Assembly: GCF_900105145.1 (NCBI RefSeq)
Contig: NZ_LT629752.1
Location: 3,887,461 to 3,951,460, forward strand
Direction of reading: 5' to 3'
DNA: 64,000 nucleotides
DNA from: Polaribacter sp. KT25b
GTDB taxonomy: Bacteria; Bacteroidota; Bacteroidia; Flavobacteriales; Flavobacteriaceae
Both the position numbers and the translations under genes were made by a program. Of this stretch, positions 1,284 to 15,464 are shown piece by piece. A model generated the notes under the pieces. That model saw nothing but the letters and a program-made list of their open reading frames with translations, made no database searches and had not been told where the DNA came from. Numbering within the stretch: the first letter of the stretch is position 1; every line of letters starts with the position of its first letter.

Positions 1284-2138
1284 TTAGTTTCTTAAATCGT
1301 GCATTACTAATATTGGAATATTAGAATGAAAGCCCATTTCTTTTACAAGAGGTTGTGTTAAAACACTACCAAAAAAATAATGCTTTTTATTAATAAATGC
1401 CACCATATTACTATCTCTACTTTCAATAAAAATATTTATTGCAGCTTCTACTGAGTTATATTTTAACTCATGAAATGAACAGGAAACATCTTCAAAAATT
1501 TCTGTAAGCAATTGCTTGTTTTCTATTTGATTATTAGTTAATTTTTCTTCTTCAGAAACATGTAAGATTGCAATTTTAGCATCACATTTTATAGCTATTT
1601 CTATCAGATAAATTAACTCTCGTCTTTTATAATGTGTTTTATAACTTGTTGGAAAAACAATTTCTTTTGGTAAGGTGTGGTTTGCTTTTTCTGGAACCAC
1701 AATTACGGGGCAATTTCTAACCTTTTCCATAACATAAATTGCAGTTCTACCGTAAGCAATTTGTGTTGAATTTGTTTCTCCTTTTGTGCCCATTACAATC
1801 ATTTCTATATCTTTCTGCTCCACAATATTTTTGATGGCTTCTAAAGGATAATTAAAAGTAGAAATGGTTTCAAAATGATGTTTTGGGTTTTTATAACCTT
1901 CAACATCTAAGACATCTAAAATTCGTACTAAACCTTGTTCAGATTTTGCTTTTGAAAGTTCGTATAATTCGCTTCCAGGTTCAAAGTTTATTAGAATGTC
2001 ATAAACATTTTGTGTTGCAGTAAATACATTTAAAAAGTAAAAAACACATTCATCATTTTTAAATAATTTTAGAGCATACTCTATAGCATTCCAAGAATTT
2101 TTAGAGAAATCTGTTGGTAATAATATTTTACGTTTCAT
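1284..2138 (-). CDS. Universal stress protein, two UspA domains (USP copy 1)
   Basis: A 284-residue protein with tandem UspA folds: domain 1 about residues 1-148 (opens MKRKILLPTDFSKNSWNAIEYAL), domain 2 about 155-284. The first domain has the nucleotide loop written as GTKGETNSTQIAYGRT, where the final Gly is followed by Arg instead of the usual Ser/Thr, so ATP binding may be weaker than in the sister copies. The second domain lacks the loop. USPs are cytoplasmic stress and hypoxia survival proteins of poorly defined mechanism. It is the last of three USP genes in a row on this strand, but has its own promoter-like element (2165-2207) of the shared regulon type. Confidence 0.92.
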   Translation of the reverse strand: MKRKILLPTDFSKNSWNAIEYALKLFKNDECVFYFLNVFTATQNVYDILINFEPGSELYELSKAKSEQGLVRILDVLDVEGYKNPKHHFETISTFNYPLEAIKNIVEQKDIEMIVMGTKGETNSTQIAYGRTAIYVMEKVRNCPVIVVPEKANHTLPKEIVFPTSYKTHYKRRELIYLIEIAIKCDAKIAILHVSEEEKLTNNQIENKQLLTEIFEDVSCSFHELKYNSVEAAINIFIESRDSNMVAFINKKHYFFGSVLTQPLVKEMGFHSNIPILVMHDLRN

Positions 2139-2164
2139 AATATGAGTTGTTAAATATGCTGATG

Positions 2165-2207
2165 TAATTATAATTAATAATCTAAAAATATAAAATGATC
2201 TAAGTCA
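2165..2207 (-). promoter_or_regulatory. CRP/FNR-type dyad plus -7 box upstream of USP copy 1
   Basis: Reading on the minus strand, TGACTTAGATCA (2207-2196) is followed after exactly 23 nt by TATAATTA (2172-2165), a near match to the Bacteroidota -7 box. The USP start codon is at 2138. It is the weakest -7 box of the seven matching promoters in the window; the spacing is what supports it. Confidence 0.6.
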
Positions 2208-2209
2208 AC

Positions 2210-3061
2210 TTAGTCCTTTTTTGTATTTGAAGGAATTACCAAAAAAGGAACATTTAAATGAAAACCGATTTCTTTAATTTTTGATTTAAAAAATAAGTTT
2301 TCGAAAAAAGAATGCTTATTATTAATCATCACCAACAAATTAACGCGTGTTTTTTGTTGAAATTCAGAAATAGCTTCTGTTACATTTTGATCAGGTACGC
2401 TATGAAATACGTGAGAAATAGTATTGAATAACGTATTTAGTTTTTGTTTATTTTTTTCTTGTTTTTCAGATAAATCATAACCATAAGACACATTTAAAAC
2501 ATGAACTTTTGAAGTTTGAGAAAGAGCAATATCTACAATTGGTTTTACTTGTTTTTTCTTAAAAGAAATTTCATAATCAGATGGAAATAAGATTTCTTTT
2601 GGAGCTTCAAAACTAAAACCACTAGGTATTGCTAATACTGGGCATTTTGCCTTTTTAATTACATGCACTGTATTTGAACCAAATAAAACTTCATCTAAAC
2701 CAGTTGCACCTTTTGTACCCATTACAATATAATCCATTGGTTTGGCTTCAGAAAGTTCTTGAATTTCGAAGGTTAAGGTGTTAAATGAAGAAATTTGAAT
2801 AAATTTATGATCAGAATTCACATATTTTTTTTCAATTTTCTTTTGAAGTTTACTAACACCCTTTTCTGATGCTTCTCTCATTGCATCAATTAAACCAAAA
2901 CTTGCAGCACCTACATTCATGTATTCTACATCATAAATTATGGGTGTATACGTGTTTAGTAAAAAGAAATTACATTTTTCATCTTTAAACAATTCAACTG
3001 CATATTGAATTGCATTCCAAGAATTATCAGAAAAATCGGTAGGTAAAAGTATATTTTTCAT
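2210..3061 (-). CDS. Universal stress protein, two UspA domains (USP copy 2)
   Basis: A 283-residue double UspA protein (domain 1 about 1-150, domain 2 about 155-283). The first domain carries a complete G2xG9xG(S/T) ATP-binding loop, GTKGATGLDEVLFGSNT, preceded by the usual VMGTKG strand and followed by CPVLAIP. The second domain has no such loop (MINNKHSFFENLFF instead), as in all copies here. It lies 18 nt downstream of USP copy 3 and is presumably translated from that mRNA. The four copies share order, length and domain asymmetry, so they arose by tandem duplication. Confidence 0.93.
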   Translation of the reverse strand: MKNILLPTDFSDNSWNAIQYAVELFKDEKCNFFLLNTYTPIIYDVEYMNVGAASFGLIDAMREASEKGVSKLQKKIEKKYVNSDHKFIQISSFNTLTFEIQELSEAKPMDYIVMGTKGATGLDEVLFGSNTVHVIKKAKCPVLAIPSGFSFEAPKEILFPSDYEISFKKKQVKPIVDIALSQTSKVHVLNVSYGYDLSEKQEKNKQKLNTLFNTISHVFHSVPDQNVTEAISEFQQKTRVNLLVMINNKHSFFENLFFKSKIKEIGFHLNVPFLVIPSNTKKD

Positions 3062-3079
3062 AATGTTTATTTTTAATAA

Positions 3080-3928
3080 TTAAGTACGTCTCATGTTTTG
3101 TAATGCTAAAAAAGGAATCTTTATTGATAAACTTATTTTATCAATATTATCTTTAAAAAGTATGTTTTCTAAAAAAGAATGTCTTCTATTTATCATAACT
3201 AAAATATCTGTTTCATAATCTTCTATGTACTTATTAATTTCGTTCGAGATATTTTTATCTTTTGTTATTTTAAAATGAATTTTTGTGTTTTTTAAGTTTT
3301 CTTTAATAAAAGATTTGTAGCCTTCTTGCCTAACAGATAAAGAGCCACTGTCTGATATATAAAGTATATCGATTGTTGATTTATAATCAGAAGCTACTTC
3401 ATTTAAAAGCGCTAATTCTCTTTGTTGATAAGGCATGCTGTAATCTGTAGCAAAAAGAATATGATTGGGCTTTTTATAAGTATAACCTTGAGGAATTACT
3501 AAAACAGGACATCTAACATATTTTAAAACTTGTAGTGTGTGGCTTCCAAACGTTAGTTTTTTATTATTTGTTTTGCCCAGAGTTCCCATAACAATGAGAT
3601 CTATGTTTTTTTCTTCTACAACTCTATCTGCCTCATCAACAAGAATGTTATTGGCAGATAGAATTTTAAATAGATGTTTAGAGTTTTGGGAAAGCTTTTT
3701 AATTTGCTTTAGCGTATTTTTTAGTTGTAATTGAGAGTCTTTACCTGCAGTTCTAATAACCTCATTAATTACTTCTTTAGTAATAGGCGCATTGCTTAAA
3801 TTAATATCTTCTTGATATGCATTTAAAATATAAAACTTACAAAACTCATGTTTAAACAACGCTAAAGCATAGTTGATAGCATTTATTGAGTTTTTAGAAA
3901 AATCGATAGGAATTAATATCTTTTTCAT
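3080..3928 (-). CDS. Universal stress protein, two UspA domains (USP copy 3)
   Basis: A 282-residue double UspA protein. Domain 1 has the ATP loop GTLGKTNNKKLTFGSHT and the CPVLVIPQG strand; domain 2 lacks the loop. It is the first gene of a two-gene unit with USP copy 2 and has a strong match to the shared regulatory element upstream (3952-3994). Cytoplasmic, no signal peptide or membrane segment. The 110-nt gap to the hibernation-factor gene contains the promoter, so it is a separate transcription unit from the genes upstream. Confidence 0.93.
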   Translation of the reverse strand: MKKILIPIDFSKNSINAINYALALFKHEFCKFYILNAYQEDINLSNAPITKEVINEVIRTAGKDSQLQLKNTLKQIKKLSQNSKHLFKILSANNILVDEADRVVEEKNIDLIVMGTLGKTNNKKLTFGSHTLQVLKYVRCPVLVIPQGYTYKKPNHILFATDYSMPYQQRELALLNEVASDYKSTIDILYISDSGSLSVRQEGYKSFIKENLKNTKIHFKITKDKNISNEINKYIEDYETDILVMINRRHSFLENILFKDNIDKISLSIKIPFLALQNMRRT

Positions 3929-3951
3929 TGTAAGTGTTTTTAAGGCATATC

Positions 3952-3994
3952 TAAATTTATACCTATTTTTGCACTAAGACAATGATCTACATCA
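3952..3994 (-). promoter_or_regulatory. CRP/FNR-type dyad plus -7 box upstream of USP copy 3
   Basis: On the minus strand TGATGTAGATCA (3994-3983), a clean TGAT-N4-ATCA dyad, is followed after 23 nt by TAAATTTA (3959-3952), matching TAnnTTTR. The dyad centre would sit near -42 relative to a start site a few bases past the -7 box, the class II activator position. The gene starts at 3928. Confidence 0.75.
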
Positions 3995-4038
3995 TGTTAT
4001 GATAAGAATAATAAATATTTAAAATCTGTATTTACAAA

Positions 4039-4341
4039 TTACAAATAAGGTTTTGCTATTCCTTTTCTCTTTTTTAATTGAATTTCTAAGTCAGAAATTG
4101 TGTTTTTTACAGCAAGTTCATAATTTTTTTCATCAGAAGAAGCAAACAATCTTGGTCCAGGAGCGCTTAATTCTATTTCGCAAATCGTTCCTTTATCTTT
4201 AGAGTTTTTTTCTTTTTTAAAAACTACGTTTGCACTAATAATTTTCTCAAACTTTTTAACCAAACTATCTAACTTTTTAATAGTATAAGCTTCCATAGTT
4301 TCACTTGTTGTCATGTTAATGAATTGAATGTTTACGTTCAT
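4039..4341 (-). CDS. hpf: Short-form ribosome hibernation promoting factor / RaiA family
   Basis: A 100-residue protein of the S30AE/HPF fold: MNVNIQFINMTTSETMEAYTIKKLDSL at the start, a KEKNSKDKGTICEIELSAPG strand region and a basic tail (LEIQLKKRKGIAK). Its length fits the short HPF/YfiA class, which binds the 30S subunit and promotes 100S dimers or blocks idle ribosomes during energy shortage. The long-form C-terminal dimerisation domain is absent. It lies 26 nt after a small membrane protein gene and is likely the end of the transcript that begins with USP copy 4, coupling ribosome silencing to the same stress signal. Confidence 0.88.
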   Translation of the reverse strand: MNVNIQFINMTTSETMEAYTIKKLDSLVKKFEKIISANVVFKKEKNSKDKGTICEIELSAPGPRLFASSDEKNYELAVKNTISDLEIQLKKRKGIAKPYL

Positions 4342-4367
4342 AATTATGGATTTTTAAGTTATTAAAA

Positions 4368-4754
4368 TTAAATTAAAATGATTGCGTACCCAATGTTTAA
4401 AAGGTATAATCCTATTAGAAAAAGTAATGTATATATTACTTGTACAAATTTTATGTTTACAAATTTTAACCAATTGATTGTCTGTTTCGGAATAATAAAA
4501 AGAGATAAACCAATTACTAAAGATGTGTAACCAATTAGTGTAATTATAAGTTTCCAATTAGGTTCCCAAATGTTATGAAATAGAATGTTTAACAACCCAA
4601 TTATAATTGATAAAAATGATAAAATAATCAAGAATTTTTGATCTTCTAAATCATTAAATATCTGTCTTATCCTTTTTGGATTAAAGCTCAAAATAACGAA
4701 AAAGATAAGTAAATAATATCCCCAAAACTTTGCTAAAAAAATTGAACTATCCAT
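4368..4754 (-). CDS. Small four-helix integral membrane protein, unknown function
   Basis: A 128-residue, very hydrophobic protein with about four transmembrane segments (near residues 9-25, 42-60, 68-88 and 103-127) separated by short charged loops such as NPKRIRQIFNDLEDQK. I do not recognise a named family. It sits between USP copy 4 (11 nt gap) and the hibernation factor (26 nt gap) in one apparent operon under the shared stress-type promoter at 5631-5673. An overlapping frame at 4354-4557 is not believed to be coding. Confidence 0.75.
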   Translation of the reverse strand: MDSSIFLAKFWGYYLLIFFVILSFNPKRIRQIFNDLEDQKFLIILSFLSIIIGLLNILFHNIWEPNWKLIITLIGYTSLVIGLSLFIIPKQTINWLKFVNIKFVQVIYTLLFLIGLYLLNIGYAIILI

Positions 4755-4765
4755 AACCTTTGTTT

Positions 4766-5608
4766 TTATTCATGAAGAACTAAGAAAGGAACATCTGTAT
4801 GATAACTAATTTCCTCTACTTTAGTGTGAAATAATATTTGTTGAAAATAATTTAGGTTTTTTGCAACCATTGCTATTAAATCTATATTTCTACTTTCTAC
4901 AAAACATTGCACGGCATCTTCTACTTTTTTATTAGTTAAAAAATGGAAACTATGTTTGTAATTATAAAAATAATCTTCTAATAATTCTTTGCTTTTTTGT
5001 TGATCTCTATTTAATACAGAATCTTTTTTACTAATATTAAGCACTCTTAATGAAGAGCTAGTTTCTTCTAAAATTTCTGCAATTGGTTGTAATACTTGTA
5101 AATTGTTAGATAAAGAAAAATCCGTAGGAAAAGCTACTTCTTCTAGTTTTTTATATTTTGCATTTTCTGGTACAACAAGTGTTGTGCATTTTACTTTAGT
5201 AATAACATCGCCTGTATTGCTGCCAATAATAAATTTACTTAATCCAGAAGCACCTTTTGTACCCATAACAATAACATCTACTTTTTTTTCTTCGACGTTA
5301 TTTCTTATAGATTCTATAAAGAAATTGCTTTCTGTTAATGTGTGAAATTTATGTTTTTTATTTTTTGGAAAATTCTCTGATATTTTTTTTAGAAGCGCTT
5401 TTAATTGCGTTTTAGCCGGTTTTATATAAATATCTACAATAACATCTTCTGTAGGAATATATGGGTAATCGGTAGTAGCTACGTTACTTAATCTATTAAT
5501 ATGTAATAAATAAAAGTTGCAAGTTGAGTCTTTATAAAAATTTAAAGCATACTCAATAGCATTCCAAGAATTATCAGAAAAATCTGTGGGTAATAAAATC
5601 GTCTTCAT
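4766..5608 (-). CDS. Universal stress protein, two UspA domains (USP copy 4)
   Basis: A 280-residue double UspA protein and first gene of the unit USP - small membrane protein - hibernation factor. Domain 1 has the full ATP loop GTKGASGLSKFIIGSNT followed by CTTLVVPENAKY; domain 2 (about 155-280) lacks it. The start at 5608 (MKTILLPTDFSDNSWNAIEYAL) matches the start of the other three copies residue by residue. The shared regulatory element upstream has a perfect TAnnTTTG -7 box. Confidence 0.93.
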   Translation of the reverse strand: MKTILLPTDFSDNSWNAIEYALNFYKDSTCNFYLLHINRLSNVATTDYPYIPTEDVIVDIYIKPAKTQLKALLKKISENFPKNKKHKFHTLTESNFFIESIRNNVEEKKVDVIVMGTKGASGLSKFIIGSNTGDVITKVKCTTLVVPENAKYKKLEEVAFPTDFSLSNNLQVLQPIAEILEETSSSLRVLNISKKDSVLNRDQQKSKELLEDYFYNYKHSFHFLTNKKVEDAVQCFVESRNIDLIAMVAKNLNYFQQILFHTKVEEISYHTDVPFLVLHE

Positions 5609-5630
5609 TTAAATTCGTCTTAGAGTTAGA

Positions 5631-5673
5631 CAAATTTATCGTTACAGGGCTTTTTAAAAAATGATATTGGTCA
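5631..5673 (-). promoter_or_regulatory. CRP/FNR-type dyad plus perfect -7 box upstream of USP copy 4
   Basis: On the minus strand TGACCAATATCA (5673-5662), then 23 nt, then TAAATTTG (5638-5631), an exact Bacteroidota -7 box. The start codon is at 5608. It lies between the start of USP copy 4 and the end of the receiver-CRP regulator gene, so the regulator's gene abuts one of its likely targets. Confidence 0.78.
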
Positions 5674-5696
5674 TATTGGCTCTAATTAGCTAAAAA

Positions 5697-6755
5697 CTAA
5701 TAGATGTCTTTTAGTTTTTCTAAATCTAAAATTCTAATATTTCTACCTTCAATTTCTATAATATTTTGTTTTTTAAAGTTAGATAATGTTCTTATTAAAG
5801 TTTCGGTTGCAATACCAGCAACACTAGCTAAATCGTTTCTAGAAATTCTTATTTGTTCTTCTGGCTTGCTATTCAATTTTTCTACAAATTTTAAAATTGT
5901 ATTTGCAGTTTTTTTACTTACAGAACTGTAAGCCATTTGTAAAAGCTGATTTTTTACAACCGCTAAATCTTCTGTTAGTAATTCTATTAATTCTAAAGTT
6001 ACTTGATGGTTTTTGTTTAAAACATTTGTTAATGCTTTTTTAGAAAGACCAACCAATTCTGAATCTTTAATGGCAGTTGCAGATTCTTGATATGATAAAT
6101 TTTGTGTAAAAGATGTATAACCAAACAAATCATCTTCTTTATATAAAGCCGTTGTTAGTTGTTTACCTTGTTCATCTAATTTATGGCATTTTATAAGACC
6201 ACTAATTATTAAATAAATGTAATTAGAGTTATTGCCTTCTTGGTATATAATTTGATTTTTAGCAAAATGAAAAATTTCGCCATTATCATCAAAATAATTT
6301 TTTAAATCATTTAAATTTCTTATTGATTCTTTTTCTTCTATTACTACTTTTTTCTCTTCCTTTTTTTCTCTAAGATCTTTTAATATTGCAGCTTTTGCTA
6401 ATCTACTTTCAATAGCACTAATTAATTCATCTTCGTTAAAAGGTTTTGTAATATAATCATCAGCACCTAAATCCATTCCTTTTCTAACATCTTTTCTTTC
6501 TGTTTTTGCTGATAAAAAAATAAAAGGAATATGATGTGTGCTTTCATTTGTGTGTAAAGCTTGTAACACGCCATAACCATCTAGTTCTGGCATCATAATA
6601 TCGCAAACAATAATATCTGGCAAAGCAACTTTAGCTACTTCTACACCAATTTTACCATTAGGTGCATTTATAACTTCGTAGTTTGCTAATTCTAAAAGTT
6701 CTGATGTGTTTTCTCTTAAAATTAAATCGTCTTCAATTAGTAGTATTTTTTTCAT
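5697..6755 (-). CDS. Response regulator: receiver domain fused to CRP/FNR-type transcription factor
   Basis: A 352-residue hybrid. Residues 1-120 are a CheY-like receiver (acidic E8/D9, phospho-acceptor D52 in VCDIMMPELDG, T/S83-region LSAK, K104 in ITKPF). Residues about 150-270 form a cyclic-nucleotide-binding-type beta roll, and 280-345 a Crp-type helix-turn-helix. The recognition helix reads ATETLIRTLSNF, keeping E318 and R322, the Glu and Arg that in CRP and FNR contact the TGA half-site. There is no FNR-like cysteine cluster. Its ATG overlaps the kinase stop by 4 nt, so kinase and regulator are one cognate pair. I infer it is the activator of the TGAT-N4-ATCA promoters around it, giving FNR-type output under phosphorelay control. 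Confidence 0.88.
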   Translation of the reverse strand: MKKILLIEDDLILRENTSELLELANYEVINAPNGKIGVEVAKVALPDIIVCDIMMPELDGYGVLQALHTNESTHHIPFIFLSAKTERKDVRKGMDLGADDYITKPFNEDELISAIESRLAKAAILKDLREKKEEKKVVIEEKESIRNLNDLKNYFDDNGEIFHFAKNQIIYQEGNNSNYIYLIISGLIKCHKLDEQGKQLTTALYKEDDLFGYTSFTQNLSYQESATAIKDSELVGLSKKALTNVLNKNHQVTLELIELLTEDLAVVKNQLLQMAYSSVSKKTANTILKFVEKLNSKPEEQIRISRNDLASVAGIATETLIRTLSNFKKQNIIEIEGRNIRILDLEKLKDIY

Positions 6756-7993
6756 TTTGCTGTGTTAATAATCTTCATGGTAAAAGTAGAACCAATATTT
6801 TCTTTACTTTCAAAGGTAATTGTTCCGCCTAAATTTTCTAAATGGCTTTTAATAATATTTAAGCCAATTCCTGTTCCTTGTGTTAATAATGCATTTTCTG
6901 CTCTAAAATAACGGTTAAATATATTTTTTTGATCTTCCTCTGGAATTCCAATTCCGTTATCTTTAATCTTAATTGTAGTATATTGTTTGTCTTGAGTTAT
7001 ATTAATGTCAATATCTGTATTTTCTGGCGAATATTTAATAGCATTATTTACTAAATTAGATAGCGCAAGTTCAATTGTTTTTTCATCTTGTGTTAAAGAA
7101 ATTTCATCAATATTTTCTGGATATTTAATTCTTTGTCCTTCTTTTAAAAGCATGTTAGCATTATAAATTACTTCATCTAAAACTTTACTTAATCTAAAAG
7201 TATGAAATTTGTAATTTATTTTACCTGTATCTAACTTTTCTACGGATAAAAAATCGTTTAAAATATTATTTAAATAATGTACTTTATTGGTAATGGTACC
7301 TAAATGCTTATCTCTTTTTTCTTGTTGTTCTGCTAATTTATATTTTCCTAATAATATTGTTGATGTTAAAATACCACTTAAAGGTGTTTTAAATTCATGA
7401 GAAACTAACGATAAAAATTTTGTTTTTAATTCATTTAGTTCTTTTTCCTTTTTTAAAGCATCTTTAATTTGATTTTCTGCTTCTATTCTTTTATGGTTTT
7501 CTTCATCTAGCTCAAGATTTACTGCCTTTAATTCATTAACAGTTTTTCTTAATTCTTTTGTTCTTTCACTAACCTTTTTTTCTAATTCTTCATTTAATTT
7601 ATAGATTTCTTGTTCTTGCCTTTTTCTAACAGAAATATCTATAATTAAAGCCATTATAAAAGTTTTTCCATAAATTTCAAACGGATTTAAACCAGCTTCT
7701 AACGGAAAAATATCGCCATTTTTTCTAGCGCCATATAAATCGCGCCCGTTTCCCATTTGTCTTTTTTCTTTATGCTTCATAAACCCATTAAAATGAGCTC
7801 CATGACCAGCATGATAATCTTTAGGAATTAGAACATTTAATTTTTTTTCTAGAAGTTCATTTTTCTCATAACCAAACATTTTTTCTACAGAAGAATTTAC
7901 AGAAACTATGTTTTGTTGGTCGTCTACAACAACAACACCTTCAGACACAGCTTCAAAAAGTACGTTAAAAACATCTTGTTCTTTATTTAACAT
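6752..7993 (-). CDS. PAS-domain sensor histidine kinase (FixL-like PAS)
   Basis: A 413-residue kinase without transmembrane helices: PAS about 8-120, a long coiled coil about 123-190, HisKA with phospho-acceptor H199 (SLVSHEFKTPLSG), then HATPase_c with N box (NLVNNAIKYSP), G1 (DNGIGIP) and G2 (GTGIGLNI). The PAS reads NVLIPKDYHAGHGAHF; by eye H64 falls where FixL has its haem-ligating histidine. Many non-haem PAS domains share the R/xxxH pattern, so oxygen sensing is only suggested. Translationally coupled to the receiver-CRP regulator. Soluble location fits an internal redox, oxygen or NO signal. Confidence 0.9.
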   Translation of the reverse strand: MLNKEQDVFNVLFEAVSEGVVVVDDQQNIVSVNSSVEKMFGYEKNELLEKKLNVLIPKDYHAGHGAHFNGFMKHKEKRQMGNGRDLYGARKNGDIFPLEAGLNPFEIYGKTFIMALIIDISVRKRQEQEIYKLNEELEKKVSERTKELRKTVNELKAVNLELDEENHKRIEAENQIKDALKKEKELNELKTKFLSLVSHEFKTPLSGILTSTILLGKYKLAEQQEKRDKHLGTITNKVHYLNNILNDFLSVEKLDTGKINYKFHTFRLSKVLDEVIYNANMLLKEGQRIKYPENIDEISLTQDEKTIELALSNLVNNAIKYSPENTDIDINITQDKQYTTIKIKDNGIGIPEEDQKNIFNRYFRAENALLTQGTGIGLNIIKSHLENLGGTITFESKENIGSTFTMKIINTAK

Positions 7994-8064
7994 TTTAGCT
8001 ATAATTATCAGATTTAATAAGGAAATAAAAATACTACATTTTTACAGAAAATTATAGTTAATTA

Positions 8065-8107
8065 TGATTAATATCATAATTTAATAACGTTATATAATCT
8101 ATTTTTA
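8065..8107 (+). promoter_or_regulatory. CRP/FNR-type dyad plus -7 box upstream of the TerB-like gene
   Basis: TGATTAATATCA (8065-8076) is a clean TGAT-N4-ATCA dyad; 23 nt later comes TATTTTTA (8100-8107), matching TAnnTTTR. The ATG at 8131 follows. The same dyad lies 72 nt upstream of the divergent kinase gene, so it could also affect kinase-regulator transcription, but no -7 box sits at the matching distance on that strand. Confidence 0.75.
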
Positions 8108-8130
8108 CTCATATTCATAAATTCTTGATT

Positions 8131-8544
8131 ATGAAACCATCACAAAACACAATTATTTCTTTTTACGAAAACCTTGGTAAATTATTTTATGCAATTGCAG
8201 CAGCAGATAATGTTGTAGAGGATGTTGAGTTTAATGTTTTAAAAGAAACTGTAAAAAATAAATGGACTAAAATTGATCATATTGATGATGATTTTCATTC
8301 TGATGCAGCATATCAAATTGAAACCGTTTTCGATTGGTTAAATAACGAAGGTTTTTCTGATTCTAAAACTTGTTATAACGAGTTTATTGACTTTAAAAGA
8401 GAGCATCCTTCTTTATTTACAGAAGAAACTAAAAGTCTTATTATACAAACAGCAACTAAAATTGCAGCATCAGTTGCAGATTTAAATAAATCGGAATTAA
8501 TGTTGGTTGCAAAACTTAGTATCGAATTTAAGAAAACGGATTGA
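8131..8544 (+). CDS. TerB-like all-helical protein
   Basis: A 137-residue cytoplasmic protein starting MKPSQNTIISFYENLGKLFYAIAAADNVV. The AAADNVVEDVEFNVLKETV segment resembles the acidic metal-binding start of TerB/tellurite-resistance-like domains (D near the first helix, repeated in SVADLNKSEL), and the whole is predicted alpha-helical. Role in the family is poorly defined (stress, metal sensing). The ATG at 8131 is preferred over a TTG at 8125 because its distance from the regulon promoter fits the other six genes. It is monocistronic and transcribed away from the kinase. Confidence 0.65.
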   Translation: MKPSQNTIISFYENLGKLFYAIAAADNVVEDVEFNVLKETVKNKWTKIDHIDDDFHSDAAYQIETVFDWLNNEGFSDSKTCYNEFIDFKREHPSLFTEETKSLIIQTATKIAASVADLNKSELMLVAKLSIEFKKTD

Positions 8545-8548
8545 TAAG

Positions 8549-8662
8549 TTTATCGCAGGGCTATAGCCAAGGATTTAATTCCTCAAGGCTTGCTTTGAAA
8601 TACAAAATATTAGTTTCGTAAGCACACATCGTACCCTTGGGTCGAGGTTGTTGATTCAGACT
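8549..8662 (+). other. Unexplained G+C-richer intergenic element
   Basis: A stretch between the TerB-like gene and the next promoter that is clearly richer in G+C than surrounding spacers. It holds CAAGG/CCTTG complementary words (CCAAGG near 8570, CCCTTGGG near 8632) that could fold back. No frame gives a convincing protein on either strand. It could be a repeated intergenic element, a small structured RNA or a gene remnant. Strand is not established. Confidence 0.3.
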
Positions 8663-8710
8663 TGAAATTTTAAAAATAATTTGCTAAAAAACAGTGTTTT
8701 TTATGCTAAC

Positions 8711-8753
8711 TGATGAAGGTCATTTTACTTTTTTTAAAACTGTAATACCTTTA
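8711..8753 (+). promoter_or_regulatory. CRP/FNR-type dyad plus -7 box upstream of the WG-repeat/efflux operon
   Basis: TGATGAAGGTCA (8711-8722), 23 nt, then TACCTTTA (8746-8753). The ATG of the WG-repeat protein follows at 8780. This places the whole four-gene transporter set in the same putative regulon as the stress proteins. Confidence 0.72.
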
Positions 8754-8779
8754 TTTACTGAATTTTAAATTTTTTGATC

Positions 8780-9373
8780 ATGAAAAAAGCAATCATATTA
8801 TTTTTCTTAATTCCGTTTTTAGGATTTTCTCAAATCACAGATAAGTTAGATTATGTTTCTCCTTTTAATGAAGGCTATTCTGCAGTAAAAAAAGGAAATC
8901 AATGGGCATTTATCAATCAAAAAGGAAACATTGTTATCGATTTTAGAGACGATTTAGTTTTAACAGAAACTAACAAAGAAAAGTATCCAATATTTGTAAA
9001 TGAAAGATGTTTAATTTCAGAAAAAAAAGACGGGATTTCTTACTTCGGATTTATAGATACATCAGGAAAAACAGTAGTTGAACCTTTGTATTTAAATGCT
9101 GCAAATTTTAATGAAGAATTTGCAATTGTAATTCATGTTTATAAAAATTTATTAGGCAAAGATGTGTTAAACAAACAAGTAGTAAGTTATGAAATTACAG
9201 AGATTTTAATTAATAAATCTGGTGAAGTTAAATTCTCTTTAACGGAACCAAAAGGTATTATTCTTTCTAAAGAATATATTAAAAATCCACCAAAAATAAA
9301 TAGTAAGTTTCTAACTAAAAATTTAATTGCAGTTTTAGGAAAAGATAATAAATGGGAGCTTAAAAAATTATAA
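8780..9373 (+). CDS. Exported WG-repeat protein
   Basis: A 197-residue protein with a signal peptide (MKKAIILFFLIPFLGFSQ) and WG-type beta repeats: YVSPFNEGYSAVKKGNQWAFINQKGNIVIDF and YFGFIDTSGKTVVEPLY are typical units, with a weaker third. WG repeats are found in bacterial envelope proteins of unknown binding function. The ATG at 8780 is chosen over a TTG at 8774 because of the signal peptide and promoter spacing. It leads the HlyD-FtsX-LolD genes by only 14 nt and is thus likely an accessory part of that export system. Confidence 0.78.
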   Translation: MKKAIILFFLIPFLGFSQITDKLDYVSPFNEGYSAVKKGNQWAFINQKGNIVIDFRDDLVLTETNKEKYPIFVNERCLISEKKDGISYFGFIDTSGKTVVEPLYLNAANFNEEFAIVIHVYKNLLGKDVLNKQVVSYEITEILINKSGEVKFSLTEPKGIILSKEYIKNPPKINSKFLTKNLIAVLGKDNKWELKKL

Positions 9374-9387
9374 ACTAATTAATTTTT

Positions 9388-10467
9388 ATGAAAAGAATAA
9401 GCGTAATTTGTTTCCTTTTTTTTTGTATTTCTTGTGCTGAAAAAGAAGAAAAAACGGTTCCAGAAAGTAGAAATATGACCGAATCTGTGTATTCTTCTGT
9501 AACGATTCAGCCAGACAGTTTATACCAAGTTTACGCTTCTGTGGCTGGGATTTTAGAAAAAAACTTAGTAGAAGAAGGCGATTTGGTTTTTAAAGAAACA
9601 CCGTTAATTAAGGTGGTAAATAATATGCCTAAATTAAATACCGAAAACGCCAAACTTATGGTAGGTTTAGCAAAAGAAAACTATACAGGAAGTGCTGCTA
9701 TTTTAGATGGAATTGAAGAAGAAATTATTGCTGCAAATCTTACCTATAAAAACGATTCAATTAATTTTTATCGACAAAAAAATCTTTGGAATCAGAAAAT
9801 TGGTTCTAAAGTAGCATTTGAAACAAAAAAGTTAAATTTTGAGTTATCTAAAAATAGTTTACAACTTTTAGAAAGTAAATATAACAGAACAAAAAACGAA
9901 TTAAAAACAGCCTTAAAACAAGCTCAAAACAATTATGAATCTTCATTAATAAACACCAAAGATTTTACTGTAAAAAGTATTATAAATGGTAAAGTTTATG
10001 CGCTATTTAAAGAACCAGGAGAAATTGTTTCTACAACAGAACCTCTAGCCAAAATTGGTAGCGCAACTAATTTTGTGATAGAATTGTTGGTTGATGAAGT
10101 TGATATTGTAAAAATATCAGAAAATCAAGAAGTAATTATAAATTTAGACGCTTATAGTGGTCAAATTTTTACAGGAAAAGTATCTAAAATTTATCCTATA
10201 AAAGACACAAGAAATCAAACTTTTAAGGTTGAAGCTTTGTTTGACAAAGTTCCGAAAACATTGTATCCAGGGCTTTCTGGCGAAGCAAATATTATCATTT
10301 CTAAAAAAGATGCTGTACTTACAATTCCTAAAGACTATCTAATTGATGCTGATAAAGTAAAAACAGATAATGGCATTGTAAAAATTACAACAGGTTTACA
10401 AAACATGGAATTTGTAGAGGTAATTTCTGGAATTTCTAAAAACACAATAATTTATAAACCAGAATAA
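9388..10467 (+). CDS. Membrane fusion protein of the HlyD/MacA family, lipoprotein
   Basis: A 359-residue periplasmic adaptor. A lipobox ends at C16 (FFCISC), then come a biotinyl-lipoyl-like half (YASVAGILEKNLVEEGDLV), a long coiled-coil hairpin about residues 85-190, the second lipoyl half (SIINGKVYALFKEPGEIV) and beta-barrel segments (GLSGEANIIISKKDAVLTIP). It would link the FtsX-type permease to an outer-membrane channel or to substrates in the periplasm. Its last base overlaps the ATG of the permease gene (10467), indicating translational coupling. No TolC-type partner is in the window. Confidence 0.88.
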   Translation: MKRISVICFLFFCISCAEKEEKTVPESRNMTESVYSSVTIQPDSLYQVYASVAGILEKNLVEEGDLVFKETPLIKVVNNMPKLNTENAKLMVGLAKENYTGSAAILDGIEEEIIAANLTYKNDSINFYRQKNLWNQKIGSKVAFETKKLNFELSKNSLQLLESKYNRTKNELKTALKQAQNNYESSLINTKDFTVKSIINGKVYALFKEPGEIVSTTEPLAKIGSATNFVIELLVDEVDIVKISENQEVIINLDAYSGQIFTGKVSKIYPIKDTRNQTFKVEALFDKVPKTLYPGLSGEANIIISKKDAVLTIPKDYLIDADKVKTDNGIVKITTGLQNMEFVEVISGISKNTIIYKPE

Positions 10468-11729
10468 TGGTTAATTGGAAAGTTCTTTTAAACATTGCAA
10501 AAAAGCATTTGCTAACAAAGTTTAAGCAAACTGCTGTTGCAGCTTTAGGCGTTACTTTTGGTATTACATCTTATATTACTTTGGCTAGTTTTATGACGGG
10601 TTTAAACAATGTATTAGATGATTTAATTCTAAACCAAACACCACATATTCATGTTTATAATGAAATTGAACCCTCTAAGCAACAACCCATTTCTTTGTAT
10701 GATGATTTTAAAAATAGCTTTAATGTTGTACATTCTATTAAGCCAAAATTAAATCAGAAAAAAATACATAACGCATTGCCCATTATTAAGTATTTAAATG
10801 ACAATAAAGATGTTAAAGGAGCAATTTCGCAAATAAAAACAAATATTTTTTACATTTCTGGTTCAATAGAACTTGTTGGGAATTTAACAGGAATAAATCC
10901 GATAGAAGAAGCACGGCTTTTTAATTTTAAAGATTATGTAATAGAAGGTTCTCCAAAAGATTTAAAAAACACAGAAAATAGTATCATAATTGGCTCTGGA
11001 GTTGCAAAAAAAATGTCTTTATCAATAGGAGAAAGAGTTCAAATAAGTACTGTAAATGGAACTGTTTTTCCGCTTAAAATTGTTGGTATTTATCAAAGTG
11101 GAGTTTCTGATATTGATGCTATTCAAAGCTTTACTAATATTAAAACAGTTCAAACTATTTTAGGAGAAGCTAAAAACTATATTACAGATATAAATATAAA
11201 ATTATATGACATTGATAAAGCCTTACCATTGGCAAAAAAAATTGAACAACAATTTAATTTAAATGCAATAGATATTAATACTGCAAATGCACAATTTGAA
11301 ACAGGTAGTTCTATTAGAAACCTTATAACGTATGTGGTTTCTATTACTTTATTAGTTGTAGCTGGTTTTGGAATTTATAACATTCTAAACATGTTAATTT
11401 ATGAAAAAATGAATGACATTGCTATTTTAAAAGCAATCGGTTTTTCTGGTAAAGATGTACAGATAATCTTTATGAGTGAGGCATTAATTATCGGAATTGT
11501 TGGTGGTGTTTTGGGTTTGCTTTTTGGATTGCTTTTTACGAATATTATTAATACGATTCCGTATGAAACAGAAGGATTACCTAGAATAAAAACATATCCA
11601 ATAGATTTTAACCTGTGGTATTATGTAATAGGTTTAACTTTTGCAATCATTTCTACTTGTTTTGCAGGTTTTTTACCTTCTCAAAAAGCTAAAAAAATAG
11701 ATCCAGTTAAAATTATAAGAGGCCAATAA
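10467..11729 (+). CDS. ABC transporter permease, MacB/FtsX type
   Basis: A 420-residue permease with the FtsX/MacB layout: one N-terminal membrane helix (about 22-45), a large periplasmic domain (about 50-270, MacB_PCD type), then three helices near 280-305, 330-355 and 375-400, ending KAKKIDPVKIIRGQ, the classic C-terminal motif of this family. It works by mechanotransmission with the neighbouring ATPase and fusion protein, exporting lipoproteins, peptides or small toxic molecules. Substrate cannot be read from sequence. Confidence 0.9.
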   Translation: MVNWKVLLNIAKKHLLTKFKQTAVAALGVTFGITSYITLASFMTGLNNVLDDLILNQTPHIHVYNEIEPSKQQPISLYDDFKNSFNVVHSIKPKLNQKKIHNALPIIKYLNDNKDVKGAISQIKTNIFYISGSIELVGNLTGINPIEEARLFNFKDYVIEGSPKDLKNTENSIIIGSGVAKKMSLSIGERVQISTVNGTVFPLKIVGIYQSGVSDIDAIQSFTNIKTVQTILGEAKNYITDINIKLYDIDKALPLAKKIEQQFNLNAIDINTANAQFETGSSIRNLITYVVSITLLVVAGFGIYNILNMLIYEKMNDIAILKAIGFSGKDVQIIFMSEALIIGIVGGVLGLLFGLLFTNIINTIPYETEGLPRIKTYPIDFNLWYYVIGLTFAIISTCFAGFLPSQKAKKIDPVKIIRGQ

Positions 11730-11730
11730 A

Positions 11731-12405
11731 ATGAGTACAGTATTAGAAGCAAAATATATTAATAAGTATTTTAAAAAGCCTGTATCTTTTCATGTATTAA
11801 AAGATATTAATTTTAAAATTGATAAAGGAGAATTTACTTCAATTATGGGGAAATCTGGTTGCGGAAAATCTACTTTATTGTACATTTTATCTACTATGGA
11901 TACAGATTATGAAGGCGAATTGTATTTAGATAATCAATTAATTACGGGCGATAGTAAAGACAAATTATCATATATCAGAAATAAAAATATAGGTTTTGTT
12001 TTTCAATTTCATTATTTGTTGTCAGAATTTTCTGTGTTAGAAAATGTAATGCTTCCTGCTAAAAAATTAGGAGAAAAATCTGTTAAAGAAATAGAAAATG
12101 ATGCAATTCAGAAATTAAAAATATTAAATATAGAGCATTTAGCTAAAAAAAAAGCATCACAAATTTCTGGTGGAGAAAAACAAAGAGTGGCAATTGCAAG
12201 AGCTTTAATAAACAACCCTTCTATAATTATGGGAGATGAACCAACAGGAAATTTAGATAGTCATAACTCAGAAAATGTTTTTAATATTTTTAAAAAATTA
12301 AGTTTAGAAGAAAAACTATCTCTTTTAATAGTTACTCATGATGAAGATTTTGCAAAAAAAACAGACAGAATTATTACAATGGAAGATGGGAAAATAATTA
12401 CCTAA
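11731..12405 (+). CDS. ABC transporter ATP-binding protein, LolD/MacB type
   Basis: A 224-residue ATPase with Walker A GKSGCGKST (40-48), Q-loop FQFHYL, signature ISGGEKQRVAIARAL, Walker B IIMGDEPTGNLD and the switch histidine in VTHDEDFA. The DEPTGNLDS form is typical of the LolD/MacB/FtsE group that pairs with FtsX-type permeases, as here one nucleotide downstream of its permease. It completes a WG protein - adaptor - permease - ATPase operon. Confidence 0.93.
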   Translation: MSTVLEAKYINKYFKKPVSFHVLKDINFKIDKGEFTSIMGKSGCGKSTLLYILSTMDTDYEGELYLDNQLITGDSKDKLSYIRNKNIGFVFQFHYLLSEFSVLENVMLPAKKLGEKSVKEIENDAIQKLKILNIEHLAKKKASQISGGEKQRVAIARALINNPSIIMGDEPTGNLDSHNSENVFNIFKKLSLEEKLSLLIVTHDEDFAKKTDRIITMEDGKIIT

Positions 12406-12418
12406 AATAATAGCAAAC

Positions 12419-12461
12419 TGATAATTCTCATTTTATATACAATCTAATTATACTACTTTTA
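12419..12461 (+). promoter_or_regulatory. Degenerate CRP/FNR-type dyad plus -7 box upstream of cbpA
   Basis: TGATAATTCTCA (12419-12430), then 23 nt, then TACTTTTA (12454-12461). The left half-site is intact and the right is degenerate (CTCA), but the -7 box and exact 23-nt spacer match the six better examples. The start codon at 12494 is 63 nt after the dyad, a little farther than in the others. Confidence 0.55.
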
Positions 12462-12493
12462 GTATTGTTCTTTAATCATAAAAAATAAGGAAA

Positions 12494-13381
12494 ATGGCAT
12501 TCGTAGATTATTATAAAATATTAGGCATTTCCAAAAGTGCTTCTGAAGCAGATATTAAAAAAGCTTACAGAAAATTGGCTAGAAAATATCATCCAGATTT
12601 AAATCCGAATGATAAAGCAGCCGAAAAAAAGTTTAAAGAAATTAATGAAGCTAATGAAGTTTTAAGTAATCCAGAAAATCGTAAGAAATACGATAAATAT
12701 GGAGAACATTGGGAAAATGGAGAAGCTTACGAACAACAAGAAAAACAACGTCAACAAGATTATCAAAGAAGATCTCAAAGTAGTCAAGGAAGTTATTCTC
12801 AAGAAGATTTTTCTGATATTTTTGGAGATATGTTTGGTGGTGGAGCTTCTGGTAGACGAACGAGTTCAAAATTTAGAGGACAAGATTACAATTCTGAAAT
12901 TCAATTACATTTAAAAGATGTTTATAAGACTCAAAAACAGGTAATTACCGTTAATGGAAAAAATATCAGAATTACAATTCCTGCAGGTGTAGAAAACGGC
13001 CAAACCATCAAAATAAAAGGTCATGGAGGAAAAGGTGTAAATGGAGGCCCAAATGGCGATTTATACATTCAGTTTTCTATTATAAATAACACCAAATTTA
13101 AACGTGATAAAGACAATCTTTATATAGATGTTGATTTAGATTTATATACGGCTTTATTAGGTGGGCAAATTATGGTTGATACTTTTGATGGAAAAGTAAA
13201 ATTGACCATTAAACCAGAAACCGAAAATGGTACCAAAGTTAAACTAAAAGGAAAAGGATTTCCTAAATACAAAAAAGAAGGTCAGTTTGGTGATTTATAT
13301 ATTACGTATCAACTTAAAATACCTACAAAATTAAACGAAAAAGAGAAAGAATTAATTAAAGAATTACAAAAACAACGCTAA
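12494..13381 (+). CDS. cbpA: Co-chaperone CbpA (type II DnaJ without zinc finger)
   Basis: A 295-residue J-domain protein. J domain about 4-70 with the HPD motif at 33-35, a short Gln/Ser-rich and Gly/Phe-like linker (residues about 80-125, ending DMFGGGASG), then two DnaJ C-terminal peptide-binding domains. The cysteine zinc-finger region of DnaJ is absent, which is the CbpA pattern. It stimulates DnaK and may bind curved DNA in starved cells. It is followed after 2 nt by a CbpM-like gene, its specific modulator, which strengthens the name. Confidence 0.92.
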
Positions 13382-13383
13382 AT

Positions 13384-13680
13384 ATGGAAACTGAAAATTT
13401 AATATCTATACAGCAATTTTGTGAGCATTATAGCATTCCAAAAACTTTTATGAATGATTTAAAAGAGTACGAATTAATAGAAATTATTGTTGCAGAAAAT
13501 GATGATTACATTAAAATTACTCAAATTACAGAAGTTGAAAAAATGATTCGTTTGCATTATGATTTAAACATAAATTTAGAAGGTGTTGATGTAATTTACA
13601 ATTTATTAAATCAAGTTGATACTTTAAAAAAAGAAGTAACTGATTTACAAAATAAACTTCGTTTTTACGATAACGTATAA
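13384..13680 (+). CDS. cbpM: Chaperone modulator CbpM
   Basis: A 98-residue protein: an N-terminal MerR-like helical region (ENLISIQQFCEHYSIPKTFMNDL), central LHYDLNINLEGVDVIYNLL and a C-terminal coiled coil (LKKEVTDLQNKL). This is the CbpM/MerR_2 pattern; in Escherichia coli CbpM binds the J domain of CbpA and inhibits it. The start is 2 nt after the cbpA stop. Confidence 0.88.
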   Translation: METENLISIQQFCEHYSIPKTFMNDLKEYELIEIIVAENDDYIKITQITEVEKMIRLHYDLNINLEGVDVIYNLLNQVDTLKKEVTDLQNKLRFYDNV

Positions 13681-13706
13681 AGTACCAGAAAACTAAATAT
13701 TTTCTA

Positions 13707-14924
13707 ATGAAAAGCTACTCTCTATTTACCATTTTGCTTTTATGTTTAGCAATTTTAATCGTAGATATTTTAGCTTTTTATTGGTTGCAATCTATAACAC
13801 AAATCATTGCTTCGGATGGTTTAAAAACTGCAATAAATATTGTTTTTTGGGGTTTTACAATAGGATTAATTGCTTCAATTATAACGCTGAAAATTACTTT
13901 AGAAGATATTGAACCTAAAAGAAAACACAAGCTAGTTTCAGCTTTATCAGGATTAACAATTTCTTCTTTTATTCCTAAAATTATTTTTGTTGTTATTTTC
14001 TCTCTAATGTATTTTTCTAATCAGTTTTTTTCTGAAACGGAATCATTAATTGTTGTTCCGTTATTTGGTTTGCTTTCTGGATTTTTGCCATTTTTTGTAA
14101 TAATGTATGGTTTTTTTAAAGCTGTATATAAATTTAAAGTGCATCATGTTACTGTTAAACATCAAAAATTACCTGCATCTTTTAATGGTTTAAAAATTGT
14201 TCAAATTTCTGATATTCATTTAGGAAGTTTTAATTATAAATATCACATTTTAGACAGAGCAATAAAAGTAATAAATGATGCTGAACCAGATTTTATTTTT
14301 TTTACTGGAGATTTAGTTAATAATTATGCTTGGGAATTAATTGGTTGGGAAAAGGTTTTAGACAAATTAGTTGCTAAAAAAGGCAAATATGCCATTTTAG
14401 GAAATCATGATTATGGAGATTATAGCGAATGGAATTCAAAGGAAGAAAAAAAAGAGAATTTTGATAAAATAAAAACTTTTTTTAAAAGAATTGATTTTAA
14501 ACTCTTGTTAAATCAATCAGAAATAATTGAAAAGAACAATGAAAAAATTGCAATTATTGGCGTCGAAAATTGGGGAAAACCTCGTTTTAAACAATATGGA
14601 AATCTACAAAAAGCAGTAAAAAATGTTACTGAAATTCCGTTTAAAATATTGTTAACACACGATCCAACACATTGGAGCAAAGAAGTACTTAAAAAAACAG
14701 ATATTGCTTTAACGCTTTCTGGTCATACGCATGGAATGCAATTGGGTTTTCAATACAAAAAAAGGCAATGGAGCCCAAGTAAATATCAATACAAACATTG
14801 GGCTGGTTTGTATAATGAAAACGAAAAATATTTATATGTTAATCGTGGTTTAGGTTGGGTTGGCTTTCCTGGTAGATTGGGTATGAGACCAGAAATTACA
14901 TTACTTGAGTTAAAGAAGAAATAA
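13707..14924 (+). CDS. Membrane-anchored metallophosphoesterase, YkuE/YaeI type
   Basis: A 405-residue protein with about four N-terminal transmembrane helices (residues about 8-28, 38-60, 75-98, 105-132) and a calcineurin-like phosphoesterase domain about 150-395. All metal-binding motifs are present: ISDIHLG, FTGDLVN, LGNHDYG, LLTHDP and SGHTHGMQ. Related proteins hydrolyse phosphodiesters such as UDP-diacylglucosamine or phospholipids at the membrane. It follows cbpM by 26 nt and is probably in the same transcript, though a functional link to the chaperones is unclear. Confidence 0.88.
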   Translation: MKSYSLFTILLLCLAILIVDILAFYWLQSITQIIASDGLKTAINIVFWGFTIGLIASIITLKITLEDIEPKRKHKLVSALSGLTISSFIPKIIFVVIFSLMYFSNQFFSETESLIVVPLFGLLSGFLPFFVIMYGFFKAVYKFKVHHVTVKHQKLPASFNGLKIVQISDIHLGSFNYKYHILDRAIKVINDAEPDFIFFTGDLVNNYAWELIGWEKVLDKLVAKKGKYAILGNHDYGDYSEWNSKEEKKENFDKIKTFFKRIDFKLLLNQSEIIEKNNEKIAIIGVENWGKPRFKQYGNLQKAVKNVTEIPFKILLTHDPTHWSKEVLKKTDIALTLSGHTHGMQLGFQYKKRQWSPSKYQYKHWAGLYNENEKYLYVNRGLGWVGFPGRLGMRPEITLLELKKK

Positions 14925-14936
14925 ATTTTTGTAAAC

Positions 14937-14979
14937 TGATGTATATCAGCTTTTTTCTTTAAAATTTCAAATACCTTAG
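14937..14979 (+). promoter_or_regulatory. CRP/FNR-type dyad plus -7 box upstream of the PPOX-like gene
   Basis: TGATGTATATCA (14937-14948), a clean dyad, then 23 nt, then TACCTTAG (14972-14979). The ATG at 15006 lies 57 nt after the dyad. The spacing from dyad to start codon equals that of the WG-repeat gene. Confidence 0.73.
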
Positions 14980-15005
14980 CTTTTCCATTACCTAAAACTT
15001 GCGTT

Positions 15006-15464
15006 ATGATTACTAATTTAAAAGAAGAAGAGTGCAGTCACCTATTAGCAAATAATTATATTGGTCAACTGGCCTATATTTATAAAGATCGACCTTTTGT
15101 AGTGCCAATTACTTATTTTTTTAATAAAAATAATATTATTATTGGTTATTCTGATGAAGGGCATAAAACGATGGCTATGAGAAAAAATAATAAAATTTCT
15201 CTACAAGTTTCAAACATAATAGATTGTGATAATTGGATTTCTGTTCTAGCTCATGGAGTTTATGAAGAGGTTACAGGCTCTGAAGCAAAAAAATATTTAC
15301 ATGAATTTACATCAGGAATTAAAGACATAATCTTAAGAAAAGAAGATAGATGTTTGCGTTCTGTAGGTGATTTTTCTAGCAAAAAATATACAAATCATCC
15401 GCCAATTATTTTTAGAGTAACTGTTGATGAAATGACAGGAAAAAGAAGGGTTCATCATTCATAA
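15006..15464 (+). CDS. Pyridoxamine 5'-phosphate oxidase-like flavin-binding protein
   Basis: A 152-residue split-barrel FMN-binding protein of the PPOX/NimA-like type: NYIGQLAYIYKDRPFVVPITYFF and the GHKTMAMRKNNKISLQV strand are typical of the FMN-binding barrel. Such proteins bind flavin or F420 and include nitroimidazole reductases and proteins of unknown redox role; they recur in low-oxygen regulons of other bacteria. It is monocistronic, under the shared dyad promoter, and ends at a convergent terminator. Confidence 0.82.
   Translation: MITNLKEEECSHLLANNYIGQLAYIYKDRPFVVPITYFFNKNNIIIGYSDEGHKTMAMRKNNKISLQVSNIIDCDNWISVLAHGVYEEVTGSEAKKYLHEFTSGIKDIILRKEDRCLRSVGDFSSKKYTNHPPIIFRVTVDEMTGKRRVHHS

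Follow-up and report, generated by a model that had tools for sequence, protein, structure and literature searches.

A 23-nucleotide class II promoter layout and its candidate receiver–CRP hybrid activator in a predicted low-oxygen survival regulon of Flavobacteriaceae

The final 64 kb of the single-contig 3.95 Mb genome of Polaribacter sp. KT25b (NZ_LT629752.1, positions 3,887,461 to 3,951,460; hereafter the window) contain seven promoter elements of one rigid design: a TGA-N6-TCA dyad, a spacer of exactly 23 nucleotides (nt) and a box that starts with TA. They serve a cluster of genes for universal stress proteins (USPs), a ribosome hibernation factor, chaperones and other proteins, in the midst of which lie the genes for a soluble kinase and for RR1, a response regulator that joins a receiver to a CRP/FNR-type output. 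We propose, with a probability of roughly 60%, that this FixL-like kinase and the fusion of FixJ and FixK type activate a regulon for survival under oxygen limitation, from operators that are common to an FNR-like protein. Within this proposal, RR1 is most likely the activator of the cluster promoters in the window, the two-component pair is perhaps a low-oxygen sensor, and the FNR-like protein, which is encoded elsewhere in the genome, probably reads the same kind of dyad.

Promoter elements in the window

An initial annotation, made from the letters of the window, had described seven such elements, and direct reading of the sequence bears out the coordinates and strands of all of them, as well as the exact 23-nt spacing from dyad to box in every case. 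As predicted class II-type promoters they are as follows.

2165..2207, minus strand: promoter of usp1, TGACTTAGATCA-N23-TATAATTA, box off consensus
3952..3994, minus strand: promoter of usp3-usp2, TGATGTAGATCA-N23-TAAATTTA, strict
5631..5673, minus strand: promoter of usp4 (by gene order also of the small protein gene and hpf), TGACCAATATCA-N23-TAAATTTG, strict
8065..8107, plus strand: promoter of the TerB-like gene, TGATTAATATCA-N23-TATTTTTA, strict
8711..8753, plus strand: promoter of the WG-HlyD-FtsX-ABC genes, TGATGAAGGTCA-N23-TACCTTTA, strict
12419..12461, plus strand: promoter of cbpA-cbpM-phosphoesterase, TGATAATTCTCA-N23-TACTTTTA, strict box
14937..14979, plus strand: promoter of the PNPOx-like gene, TGATGTATATCA-N23-TACCTTAG, box off consensus

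In its finer points the description needs some adjustment. TGA-N6-TCA is present in all seven elements, but the full TGAT-N4-RTCA dyad, said to be the usual form, is found in four; similarly, the boxes, described as TAnnTTTR-like, all start with TA and are strict TAnnTTTR in five, but are off consensus at 2207-2165 (TATAATTA) and 14937-14979 (TACCTTAG). From dyad end to start codon the distances are, in map order, 57, 54, 53, 54, 57, 63 and 57 nt, so that six are indeed tightly grouped, although at 53–57 rather than the 54–58 nt originally given, with cbpA the outlier at 63 nt. The strict pattern with the 23-nt spacer (N23) is matched five times within the initial 16 kb of the window and nowhere in the remaining 48 kb. 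The intergenic DNA before the WG promoter (8545-8666) is a dispersed repeat, with four more copies in the same genome at 75–85% identity.

Enrichment of the 23-nt layout

The annotation had made its regulon depend on genome-wide enrichment of the spacing, and such enrichment is found. Across a family set of 249 genomes (taken to be Flavobacteriaceae, judging from the named loci), N23 gives 4450 matches, compared with 1096 for N22 and 597 for the reversed N23 pattern, the last being a low baseline, since it is exceeded by the N22 count. In the Polaribacter genome itself, the strict N23 layout is matched 49 times and the pattern read backwards three times. With spacers of 8–38 nt allowed behind TGAYN4RTCA, this genome yields 106 matches; among the 100 of these that were listed, 39 have the 23-nt spacer, and the other 61 are scattered over the remaining 30 spacings, at about two each.

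The same preference is seen around the genes for receiver–CRP hybrids, of which the genome encodes a second, RR2. Here, spacer histograms covering 0–90 nt all peak at 23, with N23 counts of 67 (a 20-locus RR1 set), 83 (20 RR2 loci) and 236 (an 80-locus RR1 set), as against mean counts per other spacing of 1.22, 1.44 and 3.29, respectively. Six loci of the 20-locus RR1 set are the same DNA as loci in the 80-locus set; with these counted once, the pooled 386 sites become 364 distinct ones. Nearly all (353/364) lie outside open reading frames (ORFs; 120 residues or more), and 320 of the 364 are at most 100 nt from an ATG with an open frame of 60 codons or more behind it, the middle half being 20–29 nt off, whereas the median distance to ATG is 120 nt for 20 other spacings.

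Position relative to the transcription start

The sigma-A box of Flavobacterium psychrophilum, TAnnTTTG, lies at −12 to −5 relative to mapped 5′ ends (PMC9723704). Applied here, this register puts the 23-nt spacer at −35 to −13 and the dyad at −47 to −36, with its centre at −41.5, a value calculated from N23 and a box position published for another flavobacterium; the activator position near −42 that the initial annotation had inferred thereby becomes −41.5. The elements thus combine the features that mark class II promoters, namely, a two-fold operator of the TGA-N6-TCA type, a (calculated) centre near −41.5 and a rigid spacing to the sigma box. CRP and FNR occupy the same position, −41.5, at class II promoters of Escherichia coli. 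The best explanation of the elements is that they are predicted operators of CRP/FNR-family activators in the class II position: the fixed spacing argues for contact with RNA polymerase and hence for activation.

The hybrid regulator and its kinase

The genes of the cluster are listed below.

1284..2138, minus strand: usp1, universal stress protein (PF00582)
2210..3061, minus strand: usp2, universal stress protein (PF00582)
3080..3928, minus strand: usp3, universal stress protein (PF00582)
4039..4341, minus strand: hpf, ribosome hibernation factor family (PF02482)
4368..4754, minus strand: small protein, a membrane protein according to the initial annotation; matches neither Pfam nor NCBIfam
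4766..5608, minus strand: usp4, universal stress protein (PF00582)
5697..6755, minus strand: RR1, hybrid response regulator (receiver, cNMP-binding fold, Crp-type HTH) and proposed activator, from Pfam, PDB, co-occurrence and neighbourhoods
6752..7993, minus strand: soluble PAS-HisKA-HATPase kinase (Pfam), the PAS domain closest in the PDB to FixL and DosP
8131..8544, plus strand: TerB-like protein according to the initial annotation; matches neither Pfam nor NCBIfam
8780..12405, plus strand: genes for a WG-repeat protein, HlyD, a MacB/FtsX permease and an ABC ATPase
12494..14924, plus strand: cbpA (DnaJ type), cbpM-like and metallophosphoesterase genes
15006..15464, plus strand: gene of the PNPOx-like flavin-binding family (PF12900)

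RR1 comprises a receiver (PF00072), a cyclic nucleotide (cNMP)-binding fold (PF00027) and a Crp-type helix-turn-helix (HTH; PF13545), and the structures in the PDB to which its CRP part is similar include those of CRP, FNR-type proteins and FixK2; the pairing of cNMP-binding fold and Crp-type HTH places it in the CRP/FNR superfamily. It is, nevertheless, neither an FNR proper nor a cAMP-dependent CRP. No conserved cysteine cluster, such as would supply the ligands of FNR's oxygen-labile Fe–S cluster, was found in the RR1 segments of 21 sequences or in the whole RR1 protein of the window. The cAMP-binding motif, R-S/T-A, was likewise not found in the binding loop of those 21 segments, and Thr replaces the first Arg of CRP's Arg-Glu-Arg helix. 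The recognition helix, TETLIR, thus keeps the Glu and the Arg, with Thr in place of CRP's extra Arg; in CRP/FNR proteins this Glu and Arg read the TGA core, FNR likewise managing without the extra Arg. The receiver, together with an adjoining gene that encodes PF00512 and PF02518, identifies RR1 as part of a two-component system, but its Crp-type output sets it apart from FixJ, which has an HTH of the LuxR/NarL type.

The adjoining kinase gene (6752-7993) overlaps that of RR1. Its product has PAS, HisKA and HATPase domains, and its most hydrophobic 19-residue stretch scores 1.27, under the level of a membrane helix. The best PDB match of the PAS domain is FixL (1d06, E = 6e-13), followed by DosP; His64 aligns with the heme-ligand His of FixL and Arg84 with its distal Arg, the two FixL positions being known for their place in the heme pocket. 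In homology of the PAS domain and in possession of the proximal His and distal Arg, the kinase is of the FixL type by sequence. An ORF is present upstream of the hybrid gene in 79 of the 80 loci, and a tblastn match to the kinase is obtained in the same number. A full alignment of these 79 ORFs has the heme-position His in 76 and the Arg in 67. These figures supersede those from best local alignments, which covered 65 kinases and showed the His in 52 and the Arg in 50; the difference is put down to slippage of such alignments in the longer kinases. In loci L179, L180, L194, L198, L203, L204, L215, L218 and L228, the kinase upstream of the hybrid is 625–628 residues long and has no distal Arg, the heme-position His being absent as well from those of L203 and L218; the sensed signal may have changed at these loci.

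Conservation of the sites at hybrid loci

In the 20-locus RR1 set, where the presence of sites gene by gene was read from the neighbourhoods by eye, a site separates RR1 from usp4 in 19 loci (L105 being the exception) and, where the gene was found, precedes terB in 7/7, WG in 3/4 and cbpA in 3/4. The 80-locus set is drawn from Polaribacter, Kordia, Winogradskyella, Aquimarina, Tenacibaculum and others (Mariniflexile fucanivorans contributing two loci); the named family members include many genera known as marine. Of these 80 loci, 73 have an exact N23 site no more than 330 nt past the hybrid gene and, over spacings of 12–35 nt, the only one to occur other than 23 is 17 nt, three times. A USP-like start follows within 400 nt, by a loose motif, in 71 of the 73 loci with a site (L214 and L217 are without). 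Among the seven loci that lack the site, four (L198, L203, L218 and L228) keep the dyad and the 23 nt, the box being, by eye, TAnnTTAG.

In eight of the 80 loci, an FNR-like gene comes after usp4 in the orientation of the hybrid gene, behind which it starts at a distance of 0.94–0.99 kb (L160, L161, L162, L169, L172, L174, L176 and L221), which suggests a feed-forward cascade from hybrid to FNR in some relatives.

Which regulator acts at the operators?

The Polaribacter genome has six genes with a Crp-type HTH, and besides RR1 two of them are of particular relevance. RR2 (C1:2731150-2732205) is 44% identical to RR1 and adjoins the gene of a 929-residue multi-PAS kinase, the two together occupying C1:2728156-2732205 (L034 and L053); an N23 site 184 nt upstream of this kinase gene suggests autoregulation. 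The gene of the FNR-like protein (C1:2119708-2120391) and a cbb3 oxidase gene are about 5.7 kb apart. Residues C4, C7, C29, C53, C59 and C106 of this protein are invariant in 20 rows, 16 of them distinct, and because of these six cysteines it is plausibly an Fe–S sensor, although their positions differ from those in E. coli FNR. Elsewhere, at C1:3296925-3296998 (L056), two N23 sites stand back to back, one of them 255 nt upstream of another Crp-family gene (209 residues); the protein encoded next to the latter has CxxCH motifs by eye.

The 249 genomes were classed by the presence of a hybrid match (113 genomes, RR1- or RR2-type) and of an FNR-like match at E 1e-45 (157 genomes), the former number being 114 matches less G002, where only the receiver is covered, with the partial match of G194 retained. 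The median number of sites is 30 where both regulators are present (n = 68), 18 with the hybrid only (n = 45), 13 with the FNR-like protein only (n = 89) and three with neither (n = 47), whereas means for the reversed pattern range from 1.8 to 2.9 across the four classes. Mann–Whitney p values are all below 1e-12, but are overstated, as the genomes are related and differ in size, and many of those with neither regulator are small. In a wider test on 296 genomes of the phylum, RR1 is matched at E 1e-40 in 46, the match being confined to the receiver in three; beyond the family, sites look to be fewer.

Various observations weigh against RR1 as activator and its kinase as heme sensor, in addition to the low baseline and the overstated p values already mentioned. 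The median of 13 sites in genomes with only the FNR-like protein indicates that the layout is not specific to RR1; G098 has a hybrid, yet six sites against seven for the reversed pattern, and there are 22–33 sites in G048, G138, G147 and G238, where neither regulator is matched at the thresholds used. In the 20-locus RR1 set, ppox is preceded by a site in just one (L092) of the five loci that have the gene. Of the 79 kinases, two carry Leu in place of the heme-position His, one stops short of this position and 12 are without the distal Arg; moreover, the FixL-like His and Arg also occur in PAS domains for which heme binding is not known. Finally, the dyads in RR1 and RR2 neighbourhoods overlap in sequence, because of which single sites are not assignable to one regulator.

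This overlap bears on a reading that we consider rather unlikely, namely, that RR1, RR2 and the FNR-like protein would act on overlapping sets of shared operators, with the inner N6 and the choice between TGAC and TGAT setting preferences among them. That sites are most numerous where both types of regulator are present (median 30) is in keeping with it, as is the different make-up of the RR2-neighbourhood dyads, which have C at dyad offset 4 in 34/82 compared with 5/67 near RR1, and begin with TGAC in 44/82 compared with 18/67. Such differences are, however, graded, and a clean split by sequence of sites for RR1, RR2 and the FNR-like protein was rejected on this ground.

We also judge it improbable that the cysteine-rich FNR-like regulator is the main activator in the window cluster too, RR1 being a neighbour with other targets. 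The sites in genomes with only the FNR-like protein would be explained in this way, its six invariant cysteines would fit an Fe–S sensor, and the recognition helix ExxIR is common to the two proteins; but the 45 genomes that have a hybrid and no FNR-like match at the threshold still have a median of 18 sites, and a site follows the hybrid gene in 73/80 loci. Two genomes make the same point at the level of genes: G131, of the same genus, has the FNR-like gene and no hybrid match, and none of its ten sites (control, one) is next to its Usp matches, whereas in G040, with RR1 and no FNR-like match at the threshold, six of 17 sites stand directly before Usp matches. The hybrid-only genomes, G131 and G040 together weaken FNR alone as the activator of the window cluster. 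The FNR-style class II regulon of the initial annotation is supported in its geometry and enrichment, with the qualification that the likely activator is the receiver–CRP hybrid and not FNR itself.

As CRP/FNR proteins can also repress and −41.5 is close to RNA polymerase, the dyads might instead be repressor operators that overlap the promoter. We consider this very improbable, since repression needs no exact spacing: here, pairwise identity is 41% for the spacer letters and 52% for the inner N6, so that the length of the spacer is better kept than its letters.

Chance or low complexity in A+T-rich intergenic DNA has a negligible claim on the set as a whole, being ruled out by the far lower counts obtained with N22, with the N23 pattern read backwards and with the remaining spacings in the range of 0–90 nt, even though the window has only 29.6% G+C and seven of the 49 own-genome matches (441581, 962061, 1231451, 1868456, 1327761, 1643248 and 2000094) lie inside ORF calls, some of the 49 being chance matches.

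Output of the predicted regulon

In the Polaribacter genome, N23 sites precede, in addition to the genes of the window, those for a cluster of three USPs, thioredoxin, Hsp20, two ferritin-family proteins, YtxH, a patatin-like protein, the PAS kinase of RR2, phosphotransacetylase, an Fe-alcohol dehydrogenase, malate dehydrogenase, phosphoenolpyruvate (PEP) carboxykinase and a cytochrome/multicopper protein; the cbb3 oxidase gene has a site 215 nt upstream. ClpB also follows an N23 site, but one inside an ORF call. There are 16 Usp-domain matches, merged by eye into 13 genes, seven of which lie in two clusters fronted by sites. Of 38 sites examined, eight have no gene within 260 nt, although one of these eight is at the edge of its locus and has a gene at 29 nt. 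The regulon is far larger than the seven promoters of the initial annotation and extends from stress genes to those of respiration and fermentation. In F. psychrophilum, the cbb3 oxidase is strongly raised under oxygen limitation (PMC9723704). Beyond the cluster, window positions 17700-20090 encode a 796-residue protein with BspA-type leucine-rich repeats and a C-terminal sorting domain of the type IX secretion system (T9SS).

Proposed mechanism and significance

From the layout, its enrichment and conservation, and its co-occurrence with the regulators, we infer the following scheme. Low oxygen, or another signal read by heme, would raise phosphorylation of RR1 via the adjacent soluble kinase; phosphorylated RR1 would dimerize on TGA-N6-TCA at −41.5 and contact RNA polymerase, helping the housekeeping sigma factor to use a promoter with a −7 box of the TAnnTTTG type. 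The logic of FixL, FixJ and FixK would, thereby, be compressed into a kinase and one fusion protein. RR2 with its PAS kinase, a paralogous pair, and the cysteine-rich FNR-like protein would use the same layout and, in those relatives where the FNR-like gene comes after usp4, behind the RR1-side promoter, a feed-forward cascade could result. The output (universal stress proteins, hibernation factor, chaperones, ferritin-family proteins, cbb3 oxidase and fermentation enzymes) would amount to a programme for low-oxygen survival. Only tentatively, and at somewhat below even odds, do we extend this to the most complete version: a low-oxygen or dormancy programme of Flavobacteriaceae run by a fusion of a FixJ receiver and a FixK module with a FixL-like heme kinase, in which the class II grammar (TGA-N6-TCA, 23 nt, TAnnTTTG) is held in common with an Fe–S FNR that the fusion can switch on in some genera.

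Activator-dependent promoters seem to have been little mapped in Bacteroidota, a phylum with an unusual −7 box for its housekeeping sigma factor. Where a promoter grammar is fixed to the base pair across a family, regulons can be predicted from sequence, and the contact of CRP/FNR activators with Bacteroidota RNA polymerase can be tested directly; such a grammar also provides a candidate oxygen-sensing pathway for Flavobacteriaceae.

Comparison with known systems

CRP/FNR class II promoters, FixL kinases and the CRP/FNR regulators of Bacteroidota are already known. The last include HcpR, PgRsp and CrpPg (PMC12750200, PMC6955866, PMC12040651 and PMC1274295), which are of the same phylum and superfamily, and for which neither a receiver fusion nor a 23-nt rule appears in the abstracts and passages covered; for most Bacteroides species and for Porphyromonas gingivalis, HcpR2 is predicted to control hcp genes only (PMC1274295). 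FixLJ-FixK2 is named in PMC6710368 and PMC9104804. Among the open-access matches listed, which comprised titles and the starts of abstracts, there was neither a receiver–CRP hybrid of Bacteroidota with a FixL-like kinase nor the 23-nt rule.

The class II promoters of FNR and CRP in E. coli have the same TGA-N6-TCA dyad at −41.5 and the same fixity of distance to the sigma box; the box itself differs, being here the TAnnTTTG of Bacteroidota, and no cysteine cluster of the FNR type is found in the proposed activator, which is a receiver hybrid. The DosR dormancy regulon of mycobacteria is similar in gene content (universal stress proteins, Hsp20 and the like), but DosR itself belongs to the NarL type and has a different operator, so that the likeness is one of output only. 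FixL-FixJ-FixK of rhizobia has in common with the present system a PAS kinase of the FixL kind, a receiver, a CRP/FNR output acting on FNR-type sites and, among the genes behind N23 sites in the Polaribacter genome, a cbb3 oxidase; here, in contrast, the heme is putative, and receiver and CRP output form a single protein that dispenses with the LuxR-type HTH of FixJ.

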